A stretch of 32,468 nucleotides of DNA from an uncultured Flavobacteriales bacterium (GTDB lineage: Bacteria > Bacteroidota > Bacteroidia > Flavobacteriales_F > PHOS-HE28). Below are positions 13,134 through 32,468 of the stretch, in pieces (position 1 is the first letter of the stretch; each line of letters opens with the position of its first letter). Location: NCBI GenBank assembly GCA_937873385.1, contig CALMYC010000250.1, positions 1 through 32,468 of the forward strand, written 5' to 3'. The notes below the pieces were generated by a model. It saw only the letters and a list, made by a program, of their open reading frames with translations. It was not told the DNA's origin and made no database searches. Both the position numbers and the translations under genes were made by a program.

Positions 13134-14945
13134 ATGAGCGACATCATCAAACTTCTCCCGGACCATGTGGCCAACCAGATCGCTGCGGGCGAAGTGGTGC
13201 AGCGCCCGGCCAGCGTGGTGAAGGAACTGCTGGAGAACAGCGTGGACGCCGGGGCCGGGCAGATCATCGTGCTGCTGAAGGATGCTGGCCGCACCTTGAT
13301 CCAGGTGACCGACGACGGGCAGGGCATGAGCCCGACCGATGCGCGGTCCTGCTTTGAGCGCCATGCCACCAGCAAGATCCGGCTTGCGGACGACCTGCAG
13401 CACATCCGCACCAAGGGCTTTCGCGGCGAAGCGCTGGCCAGCATCGCGGCCATCGCGCAGGTGGAACTGAAAACACGGCAGGCCGGTGATGAGCTTGGCA
13501 CACGTGTGCTGATCGAGGGCAGCCGCGTGCAGGCACAGGAAGCATTGGCCTGTCCGGTGGGCACCAGCCTGTTGGTCCGCAGCCTGTTCTACAATGTGCC
13601 CGCACGGCGGCAATTCCTGAAGAGCGACCCGGTGGAGCTGAAGCACGTGATCGAGGAATTCCAACGCGTGGCCCTCGCACATCCGGCCATCCGTTTCCGC
13701 CTGTTGCACAACGACCAGGAAGTGTTCCACCTGGAATCGGGCAATGAGCGGCAGCGCATTGTGCACCTCTTCGGACGCAAATACGATGAGCGGCTGGTGC
13801 CGGTGGAGGAATCCACGGAATTCCTGCACGTGGAAGGCTTCATCACCAAGCCCGAATTCGCCAAGCGCAGCCGGGGCGAGCAGTACTTCTTCGTGAACCG
13901 CCGCTTCATCCGCAGCCCCTACTTGGAGCATGCGGTGCGCCGGGCCTACGAGGAGTTGATCCAGCGCGACAACTACCCCGGCTGGTTCCTATTCCTGGAG
14001 CTGGACCCGGCGTGGATCGACATCAACATCCACCCCACCAAAACGGAGATCAAGTTCCGGGATGACCGCGCCGTGTACGCCATCGTGCATGCGGCCGTGC
14101 GGCGCGCCTTGGGGCGGCACAACCTCACCCCGAGCCTGGATTTTGAGCCGGAGCCCGCGTTGCTGCACGGAGCCGTGCCCACCGGCCCGTTACCCATGGA
14201 ACCGACCATTGGCAGTGGCCGTTGGCGCCCCCGGGACCTGCCGAGGCAGGCATCGCCCGCAGGCTGGCAGCAGTTGTTCGACCTGGGTGAAACACCCGTG
14301 GTGCAGCACGATGAACAACTGCCCGGGCTTGCCCCCCCGGCAGATGGCGCAGCAGCGCCGGCCCCGCGCGAATGGAACAACAACAGGCCCGTGTTCCAGT
14401 TGCCCGGGCATTACATGCTGGCGCAAGTGAAAAGCGGATTTGTAGTGGTGGACCGACAACGCGCGATGGAGCGCATCACCTATGAGCGGGCCCTGCAATC
14501 GCTGGAAAGGGGCACTGGCGCCAGCCAGGCCCAGTTGTTTCCGGTGACCATGGAGCTGAGCGGGCCCGACCATGCCCTGTTGCTGGCCCTGCTGCCGGAG
14601 CTGCATGCCTTGGGCTTCCAACTGGAACCGCTCAGCGGGCGCAGCGTGGCGGTGAACGGCATGCCCGCCGAATGCGGTGCGGAAGATCCGGCCGACCTGC
14701 TCGGCCAACTGCTGGAACAGGTCCACAACGAACGCGGCTCGCTGAAGGCCGAGCGCCATGCCACACTGGCAAGGGGCATGGCCCGCAGCACCGCGGTGCA
14801 TCTTGCCAAGCACATGGACGTCGCGGCCATGCACGACCTCATCGACCGCCTGTTCGCCTGCGAAATGCCTTACTTCACGCCGGGCGGAAAACCTGTGCTC
14901 ATCACCTACGGGCTCCAGGAGCTCGACGAACGCTTTGAACGCTGA
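13134..14945 (+). CDS. mutL: DNA mismatch repair protein MutL
   Basis: The 603-residue protein has the GHKL ATPase of MutL: VVKELLENSVDAGA with E31 and N35, TDDGQGM (residues 59-65), ATSKI (78-82) and GFRGEAL (95-101). The transducer domain ends with DINIHPTKTEIKFRDD. After a proline-rich linker (about 355-420) comes the dimerisation domain. The endonuclease motif DQHA-x2-E is degenerate: DRQRAME at 440-446 lacks the Q and H. The C-terminus ends with CEMPYFTPGGKP. MutL couples MutS mismatch recognition to strand removal. ATG 13134 matches the family N-terminus (SDIIKLLPDHVANQIAAGEV). The stop shares a base with the next start (TGATG), beginning a tightly packed four-gene run. Confidence 0.97.
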   Translation: MSDIIKLLPDHVANQIAAGEVVQRPASVVKELLENSVDAGAGQIIVLLKDAGRTLIQVTDDGQGMSPTDARSCFERHATSKIRLADDLQHIRTKGFRGEALASIAAIAQVELKTRQAGDELGTRVLIEGSRVQAQEALACPVGTSLLVRSLFYNVPARRQFLKSDPVELKHVIEEFQRVALAHPAIRFRLLHNDQEVFHLESGNERQRIVHLFGRKYDERLVPVEESTEFLHVEGFITKPEFAKRSRGEQYFFVNRRFIRSPYLEHAVRRAYEELIQRDNYPGWFLFLELDPAWIDINIHPTKTEIKFRDDRAVYAIVHAAVRRALGRHNLTPSLDFEPEPALLHGAVPTGPLPMEPTIGSGRWRPRDLPRQASPAGWQQLFDLGETPVVQHDEQLPGLAPPADGAAAPAPREWNNNRPVFQLPGHYMLAQVKSGFVVVDRQRAMERITYERALQSLERGTGASQAQLFPVTMELSGPDHALLLALLPELHALGFQLEPLSGRSVAVNGMPAECGAEDPADLLGQLLEQVHNERGSLKAERHATLARGMARSTAVHLAKHMDVAAMHDLIDRLFACEMPYFTPGGKPVLITYGLQELDERFER

Positions 14946-25575: not shown

Positions 25576-27447
<1,872 letters not shown>

Positions 27448-27535
27448 CAAATAAGCGACCCGGCAACATTGCTGCGCCGGGCCGAGTGAATGTTCACACA
27501 ACGGGATAAACCCTTATTGTGATCTGCTTCAATTC
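27448..27535 (-). ncRNA. tracrRNA of the type II-C CRISPR system
   Basis: Read on the minus strand, the segment begins AATTGAAGCAGATCACAA, the complement of a repeat starting (G)TTGTGATCTGCTTC, close to known Bacteroidota type II-C repeats that begin GTTGTGATTTGCTT. It continues TAAGGGTTTATCCCGTTGTG, in which GGG/CCC pair and CACAA can face TTGTG, a nexus resembling AATAAGGATTATTCCGTTGTG of related tracrRNAs. A small hairpin GTGAACATTCAC (27497-27486) and a 9-bp terminator stem follow. An exact -7 box lies about 6 nt before the predicted 5' end. The RNA pairs with crRNA repeats and guides Cas9. Ends are predicted to within about 5 nt. It is transcribed away from cas9. Confidence 0.82.
27456..27484 (-). 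terminator. tracrRNA terminator hairpin
   Basis: On the minus strand CGGCCCGGC (27484-27476) pairs with GCCGGGTCG (27464-27456) in a 9-bp stem with one G-U, across an 11-nt loop, followed by CTTATTT. The T-run is short, but the hairpin would also serve as the 3' stem of the tracrRNA. Confidence 0.65.
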
Positions 27536-27541
27536 TTGGCA

Positions 27542-27564: not shown

Positions 27565-30500
27565 ATGAAAAAGATCTTGGGATTGGACCTGGGCACCACC
27601 TCCATCGGCTGGGCGGTGATCAACGAAGCGGAGAACGAAAATGAACAAGCCTCCATCGTCGGTACTGGCGTGCGCGTAGTACCGCTCACCGTGGATGAGC
27701 AGACCGACTTCGAGAAGGGCAGGCCGCTTTCCACCAACGCCGACAGGACCCTCAAGCGCGGCATGCGCCGCAACCTGGACCGCTACCAGGACCGCCGCGC
27801 GCACCTGCTGCAACTGCTGAAGCAGCACGGTCTCATCACTGAGGATACGGTCCTGACGGAAACCGGCAGCAACAGCACCCACTCGCTATGGGCGTTGCGT
27901 GCAGATGCAGCCACCAAGCCGATCGCGCTGGAAGCCTTCGCACGGGTGCTGCTGGCCATCAACAAAAAGCGTGGCTACAAGAGCAACCGCAAGGCCAAGG
28001 ACGAGGATGATGGACAGGCCGTGGATGGCATGACCATCGCCAAGGAGCTGTACGACAACGACCTCACCTGCGGGCAGTACGGGCTGAAGCGGCTACAAGA
28101 CGGCAAGCGCCACATCCCCGACTTCTACCGCAGCGACCTGAAAGCAGAACTGGAGCGCATCTGGCGCAAACAACGGGAGTACCACGGCGAACTGCTGCGC
28201 CATGAACTGCTGGAGAAGATCGCGGGCAAGGCACAAAAAGCCACCTGGGCCATCTTGAAGGAACCCTGGGGCCTGGTGGGTGAAAAGCGCACCACCAAGG
28301 GCTTCGAGCAAAAGGTCGAAGACTATCAATGGCGTGTGAATGCCCTGAGCGAGAAGATGAGCCTGGAACAATTGGCCGTGGTGGTACAGCAGGTGAACGG
28401 CGCCATCTCCTCTTCAAGTGGACTCTTGGGCGCCATCAGCGACCGCAGCAAGCAACTGCTGATCCAAGACATCACCGTGGGTCAGTTCCTGTACAAGCAG
28501 CTCCAGGAAAACCCGCATACCCGCACGAAAGGTCAGGTTTTCTACCGGCAGGATTACTTGGACGAGTTCGAGCGGATCTGGGAAGTACAGAAGGAAGCCC
28601 ACCCGCAACTCACGGATGACCTGAAACGCGATGTGCGCGATACGGTGATCTTCTACCAGCGCCGCCTGAAGTCGCAGAAGGGCCAGTTGGCCGTGTGCGA
28701 ATTTGAAGGCGTGAAGAAGCCGGTGATCGACGAGAACGGACAACCGGCAATGACCAAGGACGGTAAGCCGAAGATGCGCAAGGTGGGACCGCGCGTGTGC
28801 CCCAAAGCCTCACCCCTGTTCCAGGAATTCCGGATCTGGCAGGTGCTGAACAATGTGGAGCTGACCTACGAGGGAAAAGATGGAAGCGCCGATGATCGCT
28901 CGGAGAACGGCATCATGCGCAAAGGCAAAGCTTGGTGCCTCGGTCCGGAATACAAAGCGAAGCTATTCGCCGAACTCAGTTGGACGAAGGAACTCACCGC
29001 AGCCGATGCACTGAAGGCCATCGGCCTCAAACCCAAGGAATGGAAGGTGAACTTCAAGAAGCTGGAAGGGAACCGCACCAACCAGAAGTACATGGAAGCC
29101 TTCGGGGCGATGCTGGCTGTTACCGGCCATGATGACGTGAACCTCGAGGAGCTACCCGCTGAAGAACGGGCAAGCACCGTGGAAGCCGTGTTGAACACCT
29201 TGGGCGTGGATACCGGGATCCTGCACTTCGACGCCACGCTGGCGGGAAAGGAGTTCGAACAGCAACCCGCGTACGCACTGTGGCATCTCCTGTACTCGTA
29301 TGAGAGCGACAACAAGTCGCGCACCGGCAACGAGCGGCTGATCAAGCAACTCCGCGACAAATTCGGGTTCAACCGGGAATGCGCGGAGACCCTGTGCAAG
29401 ATCTCCTTTGAGGATGACCACGGCAGCTTGAGCGCACGGGCGATCAAAAAGATCCTGCCCCATTTGAAGCAAGGGGAGATCTACGATGTGGCCTGCGAGC
29501 TCGCCGGGTACAACCACTCCCATTCCGTGACGGCCGATGAGAACGAAGCCCGTGAACTGATCGACACCCTGGAGATCCTGCCCAAGGGCGCCTTGCGCAA
29601 CCCCGTGGTGGAGAAGATCCTGAACCAGATGGTCCACGTGGTGAACAAGGTGATCGCCGTGTACGGCCGCCCCGACGAGATCCGCGTGGAAATGGCCCGC
29701 GAACTGAAGAAGAGTGCCAAGGAAAGGGAGGAAATGACCAAGAGCATCGATGCAGCTAACCGGGCCCACGATACCATCCGCAAAGAGATCGCGCAGCTCC
29801 ACCCCTTCAGTACCGGTGTGCGCATCACCCGAAACGACATCATCAAGTACAAACTGTACCAAGAACTGAGCGTGAATAGTTACAGGACCTTGTACAGCGA
29901 TGTGGAGATCATCAAGGAGAAGCTCTTCAGCAAGGAATACGACATTGAGCACATCATTCCCCAAGCACGCCTGTTCGACGACAGTTTCAGCAACAAGACC
30001 ATCGAGCTGCGCAGTGTGAACCTGAAGAAAGGCAACGCCACGGCCATGGACTTCATGGAGACCGAGTACGGTCCCGACAGCGAGCAGGTGGCCGAGTACA
30101 AGGCACGCGCGGAGAAGTTCTTCAAGAAGGAAAGCCCAGGGAAGTTCAAGAAGCTGCTGATGAAGGAAGCCGACATCCCGGACGGCTTCATCGACCGCGA
30201 CCTGCGCAATACCCAGTACATCACGCGCATGGCCCTGGGCTTGTTGCGGCAGGTGGCCCGCACCGTTACGCCCACCACCGGCAGCGTCACCGACCGCTTG
30301 CGCCAGGATTGGCAACTGATCAACGTGCTGCAAGAATTGAACTGGGACAAGTACGAGAAAGCGGGCCTCACCTACACCGAGAAGGACAAGGACGGCGGCG
30401 ATGTACGCAAGATCAAGGACTGGACCAAGCGCAACGATCACCGCCACCACGCCATGGATGCCCTTGCCGTTGCTTTCACCCGGCCGAGCCACATTCAATA

Positions 30501-31899
30501 CCTGAACTACCTGAACGCCCGGCGCGATGAGGACCACAGAAAACACAAAGTGATCCTCGCCATCGAGAACAAGGAGACCACCGTGGACAGCAAGAAACGT
30601 CGCCTCTTCAATCCGCCCATGCCACTGGACCAGTTACGCGCCCAAGTGAAGCAACACCTAGAAAGCACCTTGGTGAGCTTCAAGGCCAAGAACAAGGTGA
30701 CCACCCGCAACGTGAACAAGAGCAAGACCAAGAACGGCCACTTCCGCAAGGTGGAACTGACCCCGCGCGGCCAACTGCACAAGGAGACCGTGTATGGCAA
30801 AAAACGGTTCTACACCACCACGGAAGTGAAGGTGGGGCCCAGCTTCGGTGCGGACATGATCGCCCAAGTGGCCAAGGCCAGCCACCGGCAGGCCCTGTTG
30901 CTGCGGCTCCATGCGGTGGGCGGTGGCGACCCCAAGAAAGCCTTCGGTGGCAAGAACGCCCTTGCCAAGAATCCCTTATGGTTAGATGACCAGCACAAGG
31001 AGCAGGTACCGGAAAAGGTGAAGCTGGTGCAGATGGAGGAGCAGTTCACCATCCGCAAGGACATCACCCCGGACTTGTTCAAGGACTCAAAGAAGAAAGA
31101 CGACTTCGCGAAAAGGGTCGAGGATGTGCATGACAAGGCCGTGAGAAATGCCTTGAAAGCCCACTATGAACGCACAAAGCTCGAAGTGGAGGCATTCAAT
31201 GAGACCGTTACGAACGCCAAGGAGAAAAAGAAGGTACTGGAAACAGCCTTCTCAAACCTTGCCGGGAACCCCATCTGGCTCAATCATGCGAAGGGGATCA
31301 AAGTGAACAGAGTGACGATAACCGGAGTGAGCAATGCCGTAGCACTGCACGTGAAGCGCGACCACCACGGCAAGTCGATCCTGGATGCCGACGGTCATGA
31401 GATTCCATCCGACTACGTTCAGACCGGCAACAACCACCACGTGGCCATCTACCGCGATGCCGAAGGGAACTTGCAGGATGAGGTCGTATCCTTCTCCGTG
31501 GCCGTGGAGCGTGTACGCCAAGGCTTATCGCCGATTGACAGAAGTTTCAATAGCAATAAGGGCTGGCGATTTGAGTACACACTGAAGCAAAATGAGTTTT
31601 TCGTCCTTCCAAGTGCAGAAACCGGATTTGACCCAACCGTAGTCGATCTGCTTGATGGGCGGAATGCCAAGCTCATTTCTCCGAACTTGTTCAGAGTCCA
31701 AAAATTCTCAAAGCTGCAATATGGGAACAGCTTTGTCCGGCAGTACATGTTCAGACATCACTTGGAAACTACGTTGTTGGACACCAAAGAACTGAAGGAT
31801 GTAGTCTACAAGGACATCAAAAGTTTAGGGTACTTCCATGGGATCAGAAAGGTGAGGCTGAATCATCTTGGTCAAATTGTCCACGTTGGCGAATACTGA
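27565..31899 (+). CDS. cas9: CRISPR-associated endonuclease Cas9 (type II-C)
   Basis: The 1444-residue protein has every Cas9 catalytic element. RuvC-I is GLDLGTTSIGW with D8. The arginine-rich bridge helix spans about residues 61-85 (RTLKRGMRRNLDRYQDRRAH). The REC lobe includes GPRVCPKASPLFQEFRIWQV. RuvC-II is IRVEMARE with E709. The HNH domain is YDIEHIIPQARLFDDSFSNK with H796 and N819. RuvC-III is HRHHAMDALAVAF with H962 and D965. It is at the long end for type II-C, like other Bacteroidota Cas9s. With crRNA and tracrRNA it cleaves both strands of matching DNA. cas1 follows 3 nt later. Base composition in the last 400 nt and in the upstream gap is richer in A and T than the flanks, consistent with transfer. 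The PAM cannot be deduced. Confidence 0.98.
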   Translation: MKKILGLDLGTTSIGWAVINEAENENEQASIVGTGVRVVPLTVDEQTDFEKGRPLSTNADRTLKRGMRRNLDRYQDRRAHLLQLLKQHGLITEDTVLTETGSNSTHSLWALRADAATKPIALEAFARVLLAINKKRGYKSNRKAKDEDDGQAVDGMTIAKELYDNDLTCGQYGLKRLQDGKRHIPDFYRSDLKAELERIWRKQREYHGELLRHELLEKIAGKAQKATWAILKEPWGLVGEKRTTKGFEQKVEDYQWRVNALSEKMSLEQLAVVVQQVNGAISSSSGLLGAISDRSKQLLIQDITVGQFLYKQLQENPHTRTKGQVFYRQDYLDEFERIWEVQKEAHPQLTDDLKRDVRDTVIFYQRRLKSQKGQLAVCEFEGVKKPVIDENGQPAMTKDGKPKMRKVGPRVCPKASPLFQEFRIWQVLNNVELTYEGKDGSADDRSENGIMRKGKAWCLGPEYKAKLFAELSWTKELTAADALKAIGLKPKEWKVNFKKLEGNRTNQKYMEAFGAMLAVTGHDDVNLEELPAEERASTVEAVLNTLGVDTGILHFDATLAGKEFEQQPAYALWHLLYSYESDNKSRTGNERLIKQLRDKFGFNRECAETLCKISFEDDHGSLSARAIKKILPHLKQGEIYDVACELAGYNHSHSVTADENEARELIDTLEILPKGALRNPVVEKILNQMVHVVNKVIAVYGRPDEIRVEMARELKKSAKEREEMTKSIDAANRAHDTIRKEIAQLHPFSTGVRITRNDIIKYKLYQELSVNSYRTLYSDVEIIKEKLFSKEYDIEHIIPQARLFDDSFSNKTIELRSVNLKKGNATAMDFMETEYGPDSEQVAEYKARAEKFFKKESPGKFKKLLMKEADIPDGFIDRDLRNTQYITRMALGLLRQVARTVTPTTGSVTDRLRQDWQLINVLQELNWDKYEKAGLTYTEKDKDGGDVRKIKDWTKRNDHRHHAMDALAVAFTRPSHIQYLNYLNARRDEDHRKHKVILAIENKETTVDSKKRRLFNPPMPLDQLRAQVKQHLESTLVSFKAKNKVTTRNVNKSKTKNGHFRKVELTPRGQLHKETVYGKKRFYTTTEVKVGPSFGADMIAQVAKASHRQALLLRLHAVGGGDPKKAFGGKNALAKNPLWLDDQHKEQVPEKVKLVQMEEQFTIRKDITPDLFKDSKKKDDFAKRVEDVHDKAVRNALKAHYERTKLEVEAFNETVTNAKEKKKVLETAFSNLAGNPIWLNHAKGIKVNRVTITGVSNAVALHVKRDHHGKSILDADGHEIPSDYVQTGNNHHVAIYRDAEGNLQDEVVSFSVAVERVRQGLSPIDRSFNSNKGWRFEYTLKQNEFFVLPSAETGFDPTVVDLLDGRNAKLISPNLFRVQKFSKLQYGNSFVRQYMFRHHLETTLLDTKELKDVVYKDIKSLGYFHGIRKVRLNHLGQIVHVGEY

Positions 31900-31902
31900 G
31901 CC

Positions 31903-32468
31903 ATGATCAAGCGCACCATCGCCATCACCACGCCCTGCCACCTGTCGCTGAAGCTGGGGCAGATGCTGGTGCGCAGCAAACTGATCGAAGGTGATGCGGG
32001 CAAAACTGTACCGATCGAGGACATGGGCCTGCTGCTGATGGAGCACGAGCAGATAACCGTGACCCAGGGCCTGCTGGCCAAACTGCTGGAGCACAACGTG
32101 GCCGTGGTCAACTGCGATGAGAAGCACCATCCGGCGGGCATGTTGCTCAACTTCCAAGGGCGTAGCACCCAAACGGAGACCTTCATCGCCCAGGCGGAAG
32201 CCCCGAAGCCCTTGAAAAAGCAACTGTGGCAGCAAGTGGTGAAGGCCAAGATCGGCAACCAGGCGGCCGTGCTGGAGGCCATGGGCCAGGATGGGGGCAG
32301 GCTGCTCAAACTGGCCCAGGAAGTGCGCAGTGGCGATACCGACAACCGCGAAGGGGCCGCCGCCGTGTACTACTGGCCGCGCGTGTTCAAACGCATTCCC
32401 GATTTCCTGCGCGACCGGGAAGGCGATTATCCCAACAACTTGCTGAACTACGGCTACGCCATCCTGCG
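31903..32468 (+). CDS. cas1: CRISPR-associated endonuclease Cas1, 5' part
   Basis: 188 codons are visible before the right edge. The sequence is a type II Cas1: the N-terminal beta domain (MIKRTIAITTPCHLSLKLGQ, IEDMGLLLMEHEQITVTQGL, LLEHNVAVVNCDEKHHPAGM) and the helical domain with the metal-binding glutamate in DNREGAAAVYYWPRVF (E150) and the DREGDYPNNLLNYGYAIL motif. Cas1 with Cas2 integrates new spacers. The 3-nt spacing from cas9 shows an operon. No cas4 or csn2 lies between, which fits type II-C, although csn2 downstream cannot be ruled out. Confidence 0.96.
   Translation, partial: MIKRTIAITTPCHLSLKLGQMLVRSKLIEGDAGKTVPIEDMGLLLMEHEQITVTQGLLAKLLEHNVAVVNCDEKHHPAGMLLNFQGRSTQTETFIAQAEAPKPLKKQLWQQVVKAKIGNQAAVLEAMGQDGGRLLKLAQEVRSGDTDNREGAAAVYYWPRVFKRIPDFLRDREGDYPNNLLNYGYAIL

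Follow-up and report, generated by a model that had tools for sequence, protein, structure and literature searches.

A type II-C CRISPR-Cas locus of an uncultured Flavobacteriales bacterium with a putatively mosaic Cas9 C-terminus

PAM specificity restricts Cas9 both in nature and in genome editing, and the PAM is read by the PI domain. Nme1, Nme2, Nme3 and related enzymes are close type II-C Cas9s with differing PI domains, and swaps of this domain between II-C orthologs alter the PAM (PMC9433092). In the Flavobacteriales, the II-C proteins Fp1Cas9 and Fp2Cas9 of Flavobacterium psychrophilum (the latter of 1548 aa, with PAM SNAAAG) have a strain-variable C-terminus, and in situ replacement of cas9 has been reported (PMC10309648, PMC12609912), with variable Cas9 C-termini in Flavobacterium described in the first of these studies (PMC10309648). 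In situ shuffling in the same order exchanges the effector and leaves cas1 in place (PMC12669027, Extended Data Fig. 9). Such cas9 exchange and variable C-termini are thus already known; the locus described here adds the instructive twist of patches within the PI region, whereas the reported shuffling involves whole cas9 genes. The Nme enzymes differ in being compact, in belonging to another clade and in having measured PAMs, whereas the present protein has two separate C-terminal patches, known from sequence; Fp2Cas9 is likened to it by description. A search of the literature brought up no relevant account of a naturally mosaic Cas9. Among solved structures, the best sequence match is CbCas9 (type II-C; PDB 8iyq, 8wmm and 8wr4), which is similarly long (1442 aa).

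The window, that is, the whole analysed stretch of 32,468 nucleotides (contig C250), carries cas9 followed after 4 bp by cas1, and it ends there because the contig ends, with 188 of ~301 Cas1 residues covered. A family search of this genome located the 3' part of cas1 on another contig, C82, at its end (L003 14530-14225, minus strand), and alignment to the Cas1 of G032, the nearest relative, indicates that ~12 codons are absent between the two contigs. On the minus strand of L003, cas1 (to 14225) is succeeded by cas2 and the array, and the overall order is tracrRNA < cas9 > cas1 > cas2 > array. The outer neighbors are guaB, on the far side of cas9, and a convergent gene for a T9SS protein past the array, whose match to the T9SS type B sorting domain falls under the model's cut-off.

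27565..31899, + strand: cas9, ATG start, 1444 aa, type II-C
31903..32468, + strand: cas1, first 188 codons of ~301, remainder on contig C82
L003 14228-13890, minus strand: cas2, 112 aa, TIGR01573, adjoining cas1
L003 11744-13787: CRISPR array directly after cas2, 27 identical 47-nt repeats and 26 spacers of 29-31 nt

Cas1 is of the II/NMENI kind (TIGR03639, E = 1.7e-53; PADLOC Cas1_II), and neither csn2 nor cas4 nor any other accessory gene was found in the neighborhood of cas9, cas1, cas2 and the array, and the locus is therefore classified as type II-C. This agrees with an earlier note, made from the window's letters alone, which had called a type II-C locus in a GC-rich Bacteroidota genome with an adjacent cas1, intact as far as visible, and had proposed looking for cas2 and for the absence of csn2 in the flanks: the genome is indeed GC-rich and from this phylum, cas2 adjoins cas1, no csn2 stands beside the locus and the Cas1 C-terminus was recovered on C82. 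The tracrRNA, the array and the mosaic nature of the Cas9 C-terminus are additions to what that note had seen. Subtype II-D (Cas9d) was considered and rejected, with NF049971 scoring 72.7 bits against a cut-off of 375 and no cas4 adjoining the locus. Judged from its sequence, this is a complete type II-C CRISPR-Cas locus that is ordinary apart from the Cas9 C-terminus. In the related genome G060, cas1 (L180 ~13408-14318, minus strand) appears to be split into two frames of 106 aa and 175 aa, reflecting a frameshift or an assembly error.

The effector matches the Cas9 profiles NCBIfam TIGR01865 (Csn1/Cas9, E = 1e-146), Pfam RuvC_III (E = 1e-52) and Pfam HNH_4 (E = 7e-17).

29890..30045, + strand: HNH domain, residues 776-827, includes H796 and N819 (Pfam PF13395)
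30172..30702, + strand: RuvC-III, residues 870-1046, includes H962 and D965 (Pfam PF18541)

An intact protein of 1444 aa with six catalytic residues had been proposed beforehand, and D8, E709, H796, N819, H962 and D965 all stand at exactly the positions claimed and are unchanged across five related Cas9s; a single effector with RuvC, HNH and all six residues accords with type II. The high lysine and arginine content that had also been remarked on is real (K+R 16.5%, pI 9.2) and usual for Cas9. The protein has relatives at 552 or more public loci, and the best 80 of these share 49-66% identity over the full length and are nearly all from Bacteroidota, placing the protein by sequence comparison in a large, common and uncharacterized II-C clade (Flavobacteriales BAC5, Prevotella, Bacteroides heparinolyticus, Algoriphagus) that is not close to any solved Cas9; it differs from the clade in its long patch 1 and a tail of its own. 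The suggestion that it may be a distinct ortholog stands only in a weak sense, as the best solved relative, CbCas9, matches in scattered blocks; the clade is very common in Bacteroidota, and distinctness alone is therefore unremarkable.

It is highly improbable that the locus is a PcrIIC1-assisted system of the CbCas9 type. CbCas9 is the nearest solved structure in both sequence and C-terminal fold and is of similar length, but the sequence similarity is partial and block-wise, the C-terminal residues alone have no significant sequence match to it, and no PcrIIC1-like or other additional gene lies within or beside cas9, cas1, cas2 and the array. Within the genus (45 genomes searched), the window's Cas9 lineage occurs in four other genomes, G032, G060, G012 and G002. 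A second, distant Cas9 lineage (~35% identity) is present in G004, G007, G008, G024 and G026 (L021-L025), with a different repeat in the loci examined (GTTGTGAAAGGCTTTCAGG...), giving the genus at least two II-C-like Cas9 lineages.

A guide RNA scaffold could be predicted upstream of cas9 from sequence and conservation.

27440..27540 (approx.), - strand: predicted tracrRNA with anti-repeat, nexus-like hairpin and terminator hairpin
27517..27539, - strand: anti-repeat, complementary over 22 nt (one gap) to the crRNA's repeat end
27459..27481, - strand: terminator-like hairpin at the tracrRNA 3' end, a strong GC hairpin

The anti-repeat, the complement of the repeat end and a further hallmark of type II, sits between guaB and cas9 and is followed on the minus strand by the nexus-like AAGGGTTTATCCC and then the GC hairpin. 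This element is kept upstream of cas9 in G032, G060, G012 and G002, and one base pair of the terminator shows a compensatory change; an Rfam search near cas9 gave no match above threshold. The repeat is identical in G032, where the array lies past the contig end and a single repeat is visible, and differs at 3 of 47 positions in G002 and G012. Because of the orientation of the tracrRNA, the crRNA would be read opposite to the cas genes. From what is known of the family, the locus would be active in vivo: the array would be transcribed opposite to the cas genes, the crRNA:tracrRNA duplex trimmed by host RNase III, matching mobile DNA cut by Cas9 beside a 3' PAM, and spacers added by Cas1-Cas2(-Cas9). 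In crRNA orientation, the repeat carries CTTTG where Bacteroidota repeats may have a -7 promoter box; repeat-encoded promoters have been discussed (PMC10309648). In G036 (L020, contig C111, 1-375), a 146-bp tandem unit ~0.7 kb downstream of cas9 holds pieces resembling the repeat end (AAAGCAAATCAC).

Comparison with G032 (L017) located two patches in which the Cas9 C-terminus departs from its nearest relative.

31075..31308, + strand: patch 1 ('MID'), residues 1171-1248, long form, apparently exchanged, modelled as a helical hairpin that separates the WED-like part from the PI part
31309..31464, + strand: island, residues 1249-1300, back to 83% nucleotide identity with G032
31465..31896, + strand: patch 2 (C-terminal PI tail), residues 1301-1444, apparently replaced relative to G032 and G060

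Amino acid identity to G032 is 91% over residues 1-1170 but 35-39% over patch 1 and 53% over the tail, and the neighboring Cas1 and Cas2 are 93-95% and 89% identical. The borders are abrupt, with nucleotide identity falling from 96 to 56% at residue 1171 and from 93 to 60% at ~1306. Among pairs of 95 Cas9s, window and G032 form an outlier: the other non-identical pairs with bodies at least 80% identical keep tails at least 66% identical. The long form of patch 1 places 57 aa between TPD and AFSNL, compared with 28 aa in 87 of 95 relatives, and was seen in 4 of the 96 proteins compared, namely the window, G060, L119 and L108 (the L108 version being longer). Across 395 genomes of the class, it was found outside the window's own genome in G060 only. 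There, patch 1 is long and 79% identical to that of the window and the tail resembles that of G032 (68-84%); G060 thus combines the window's patch 1 with G032's tail, and the patches therefore assort independently. Searches for the tail donor yielded a best tail identity of 63-64% and none higher. The short form is present in L062, a close relative of L108. Over the equivalent of residues 1171-1248 these two are 40% identical, compared with 86% in the body and 81% in the tail, a difference that corresponds to a separate event in which the hairpin segment was exchanged or inserted.

Approximately unbiased (AU) tests gave a different grouping for each part of the protein. In the body, window and G032 grouped together, with window+G060 (p = 0.0003) and G032+G060 (p = 0.0006) rejected; in patch 1, window grouped with G060 (and L119), with window+G032 rejected (p = 5e-6); and in the tail, G032 and G060 grouped together, with window+G032 (p = 0.001) and window+G060 (p = 0.0015) rejected. 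On an earlier sampling without G060, the tests were not significant (p = 0.09-0.49). As read from these trees, the three parts of the protein each have a history of their own. Third-position GC content (GC3) also shifts, from 81% in the body to 69% and 58% (the latter in the tail).

PI domains evolve fast and, among relatives, conservation is somewhat lower in the tail than in the body, which would suit a C-terminus that diverged in place under rapid positive selection, driven by an arms race over PAM or anti-CRISPR proteins and without recombination. Four-fold degenerate sites have diverged too, however (330 of 459 identical in the body, 11 of 33 in the patches; p = 1.4e-5), and in-place positive selection at the protein level is therefore no explanation for them. 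Divergence in place is further opposed by the conflicting trees, the abrupt borders and the 29-aa longer segment common to the window and the distant L119 (MAG palsa_966), which are 63-67% identical in patch 1 but only ~50% in the body, and we consider it improbable. Nor is the mosaic at all likely to have arisen in metagenome assembly through the joining of two strains: the genome is fragmented into 359 contigs, and the one in question breaks off within cas1, ~570 bp beyond the tail, but the reading frame is open throughout, the tail closes with the GEY terminus conserved across the clade and is followed at once by a cas1 94% like that of G032, the long patch 1 recurs in the independent genome G060 and in L119, and several switches would be needed within 0.8 kb. 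From the trees and AU tests, together with the four-fold sites and the GC content, there is strong reason to think that the two patches were each exchanged independently, through recombination with divergent alleles of cas9. Under recombination, the nuclease and recognition body, Cas1, Cas2, tracrRNA and repeat would belong to the genus lineage, nearest G032, and patches ~1171-1248 and 1301-1444 of the WED/PI region would have been swapped in.

AlphaFold2 modelled residues 1046-1444 with a mean pLDDT of 86.6; in this prediction, a WED-like portion rich in beta structure is followed by the helical hairpin of patch 1 (model residues 136-185) and then by a C-terminal portion of mixed structure. 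The best fold match of the whole model by VIA-align was the WED/PI region of CbCas9 (residues 1124-1428, Z = 10.6, moderate), with further matches to the WED/PI regions of Nme, Hpa and Geo Cas9, and the tail matched CjCas9 residues 827-976 (Z = 7.7, moderate); the WED and PI names are those we take to apply in the CbCas9, Nme, Hpa, Geo and Cj structures. In solved Cas9s, the PAM is read in the region that corresponds to the patches, which makes a changed PAM the likely consequence. We hold with moderate confidence that the exchange may have altered PAM specificity, with inhibitor escape as the main alternative; guide RNA and catalysis would in either case have been retained.

Type II-C Cas9s have known anti-CRISPR inhibitors, some of which bind to the PI region, so the patches might serve escape from such proteins and not a PAM change. 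We regard this as unlikely: neither an inhibitor nor a prophage bearing one was identified, and PI differences among II-C orthologs are known to alter the PAM (PMC9433092). To the overall reading, a complete II-C system whose Cas9 C-terminus became mosaic by recombination, with PAM specificity changed or a PI-binding inhibitor escaped, we assign a probability of roughly 80%. More tentatively, the PI region might consist of two separately exchangeable modules, a hairpin cassette (residues 1171-1248) mobile between distant Cas9 lineages and a PAM-reading tail, mixed and matched for PAM or inhibitor specificity, which we regard as possible rather than probable. The locus itself is ordinary, and its Cas9 may be a natural example of re-aiming by gene exchange. 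The genus offers a natural experiment of three proteins, one guide scaffold and two patches, with bodies, tracrRNAs and repeats nearly identical; their comparison would reveal where in a large II-C Cas9 the PAM is determined and in what way bacteria redirect the enzyme while keeping its guide RNA.

Finally, we searched for targets of the array. The 26 spacers had no match among phages and plasmids, and no self-targeting spacer was found in the window's own genome. No PAM was obtained from protospacers, the window's array having one good protospacer; targets of G002 and G012 spacers have flanks TGGTAATT and TTGGTAGC, which are few in number and belong to a different Cas9 tail. Scans of viral contigs with seed pieces of 20-22 nt gave an uncertain hit for spacer 25, an exact 20-nt seed in one contig with 7 mismatches over the 30-nt spacer and no second spacer match in that contig. 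The window's genome and 44 further genomes of the genus yielded one good target, that of spacer 13 (27 of 29 positions, 3' flank AAGTTTTG); it lies at the beginning of a gene that belongs to an integrative element in G002. The targeted 456-aa protein matched no Pfam family, and the element (L043, contig C39, 547-6246) carries tyrosine recombinase, HTH_17 and D5/DUF5906 primase-like genes; by its sequence match, the spacer 13 target is consistent with defense against mobile elements.
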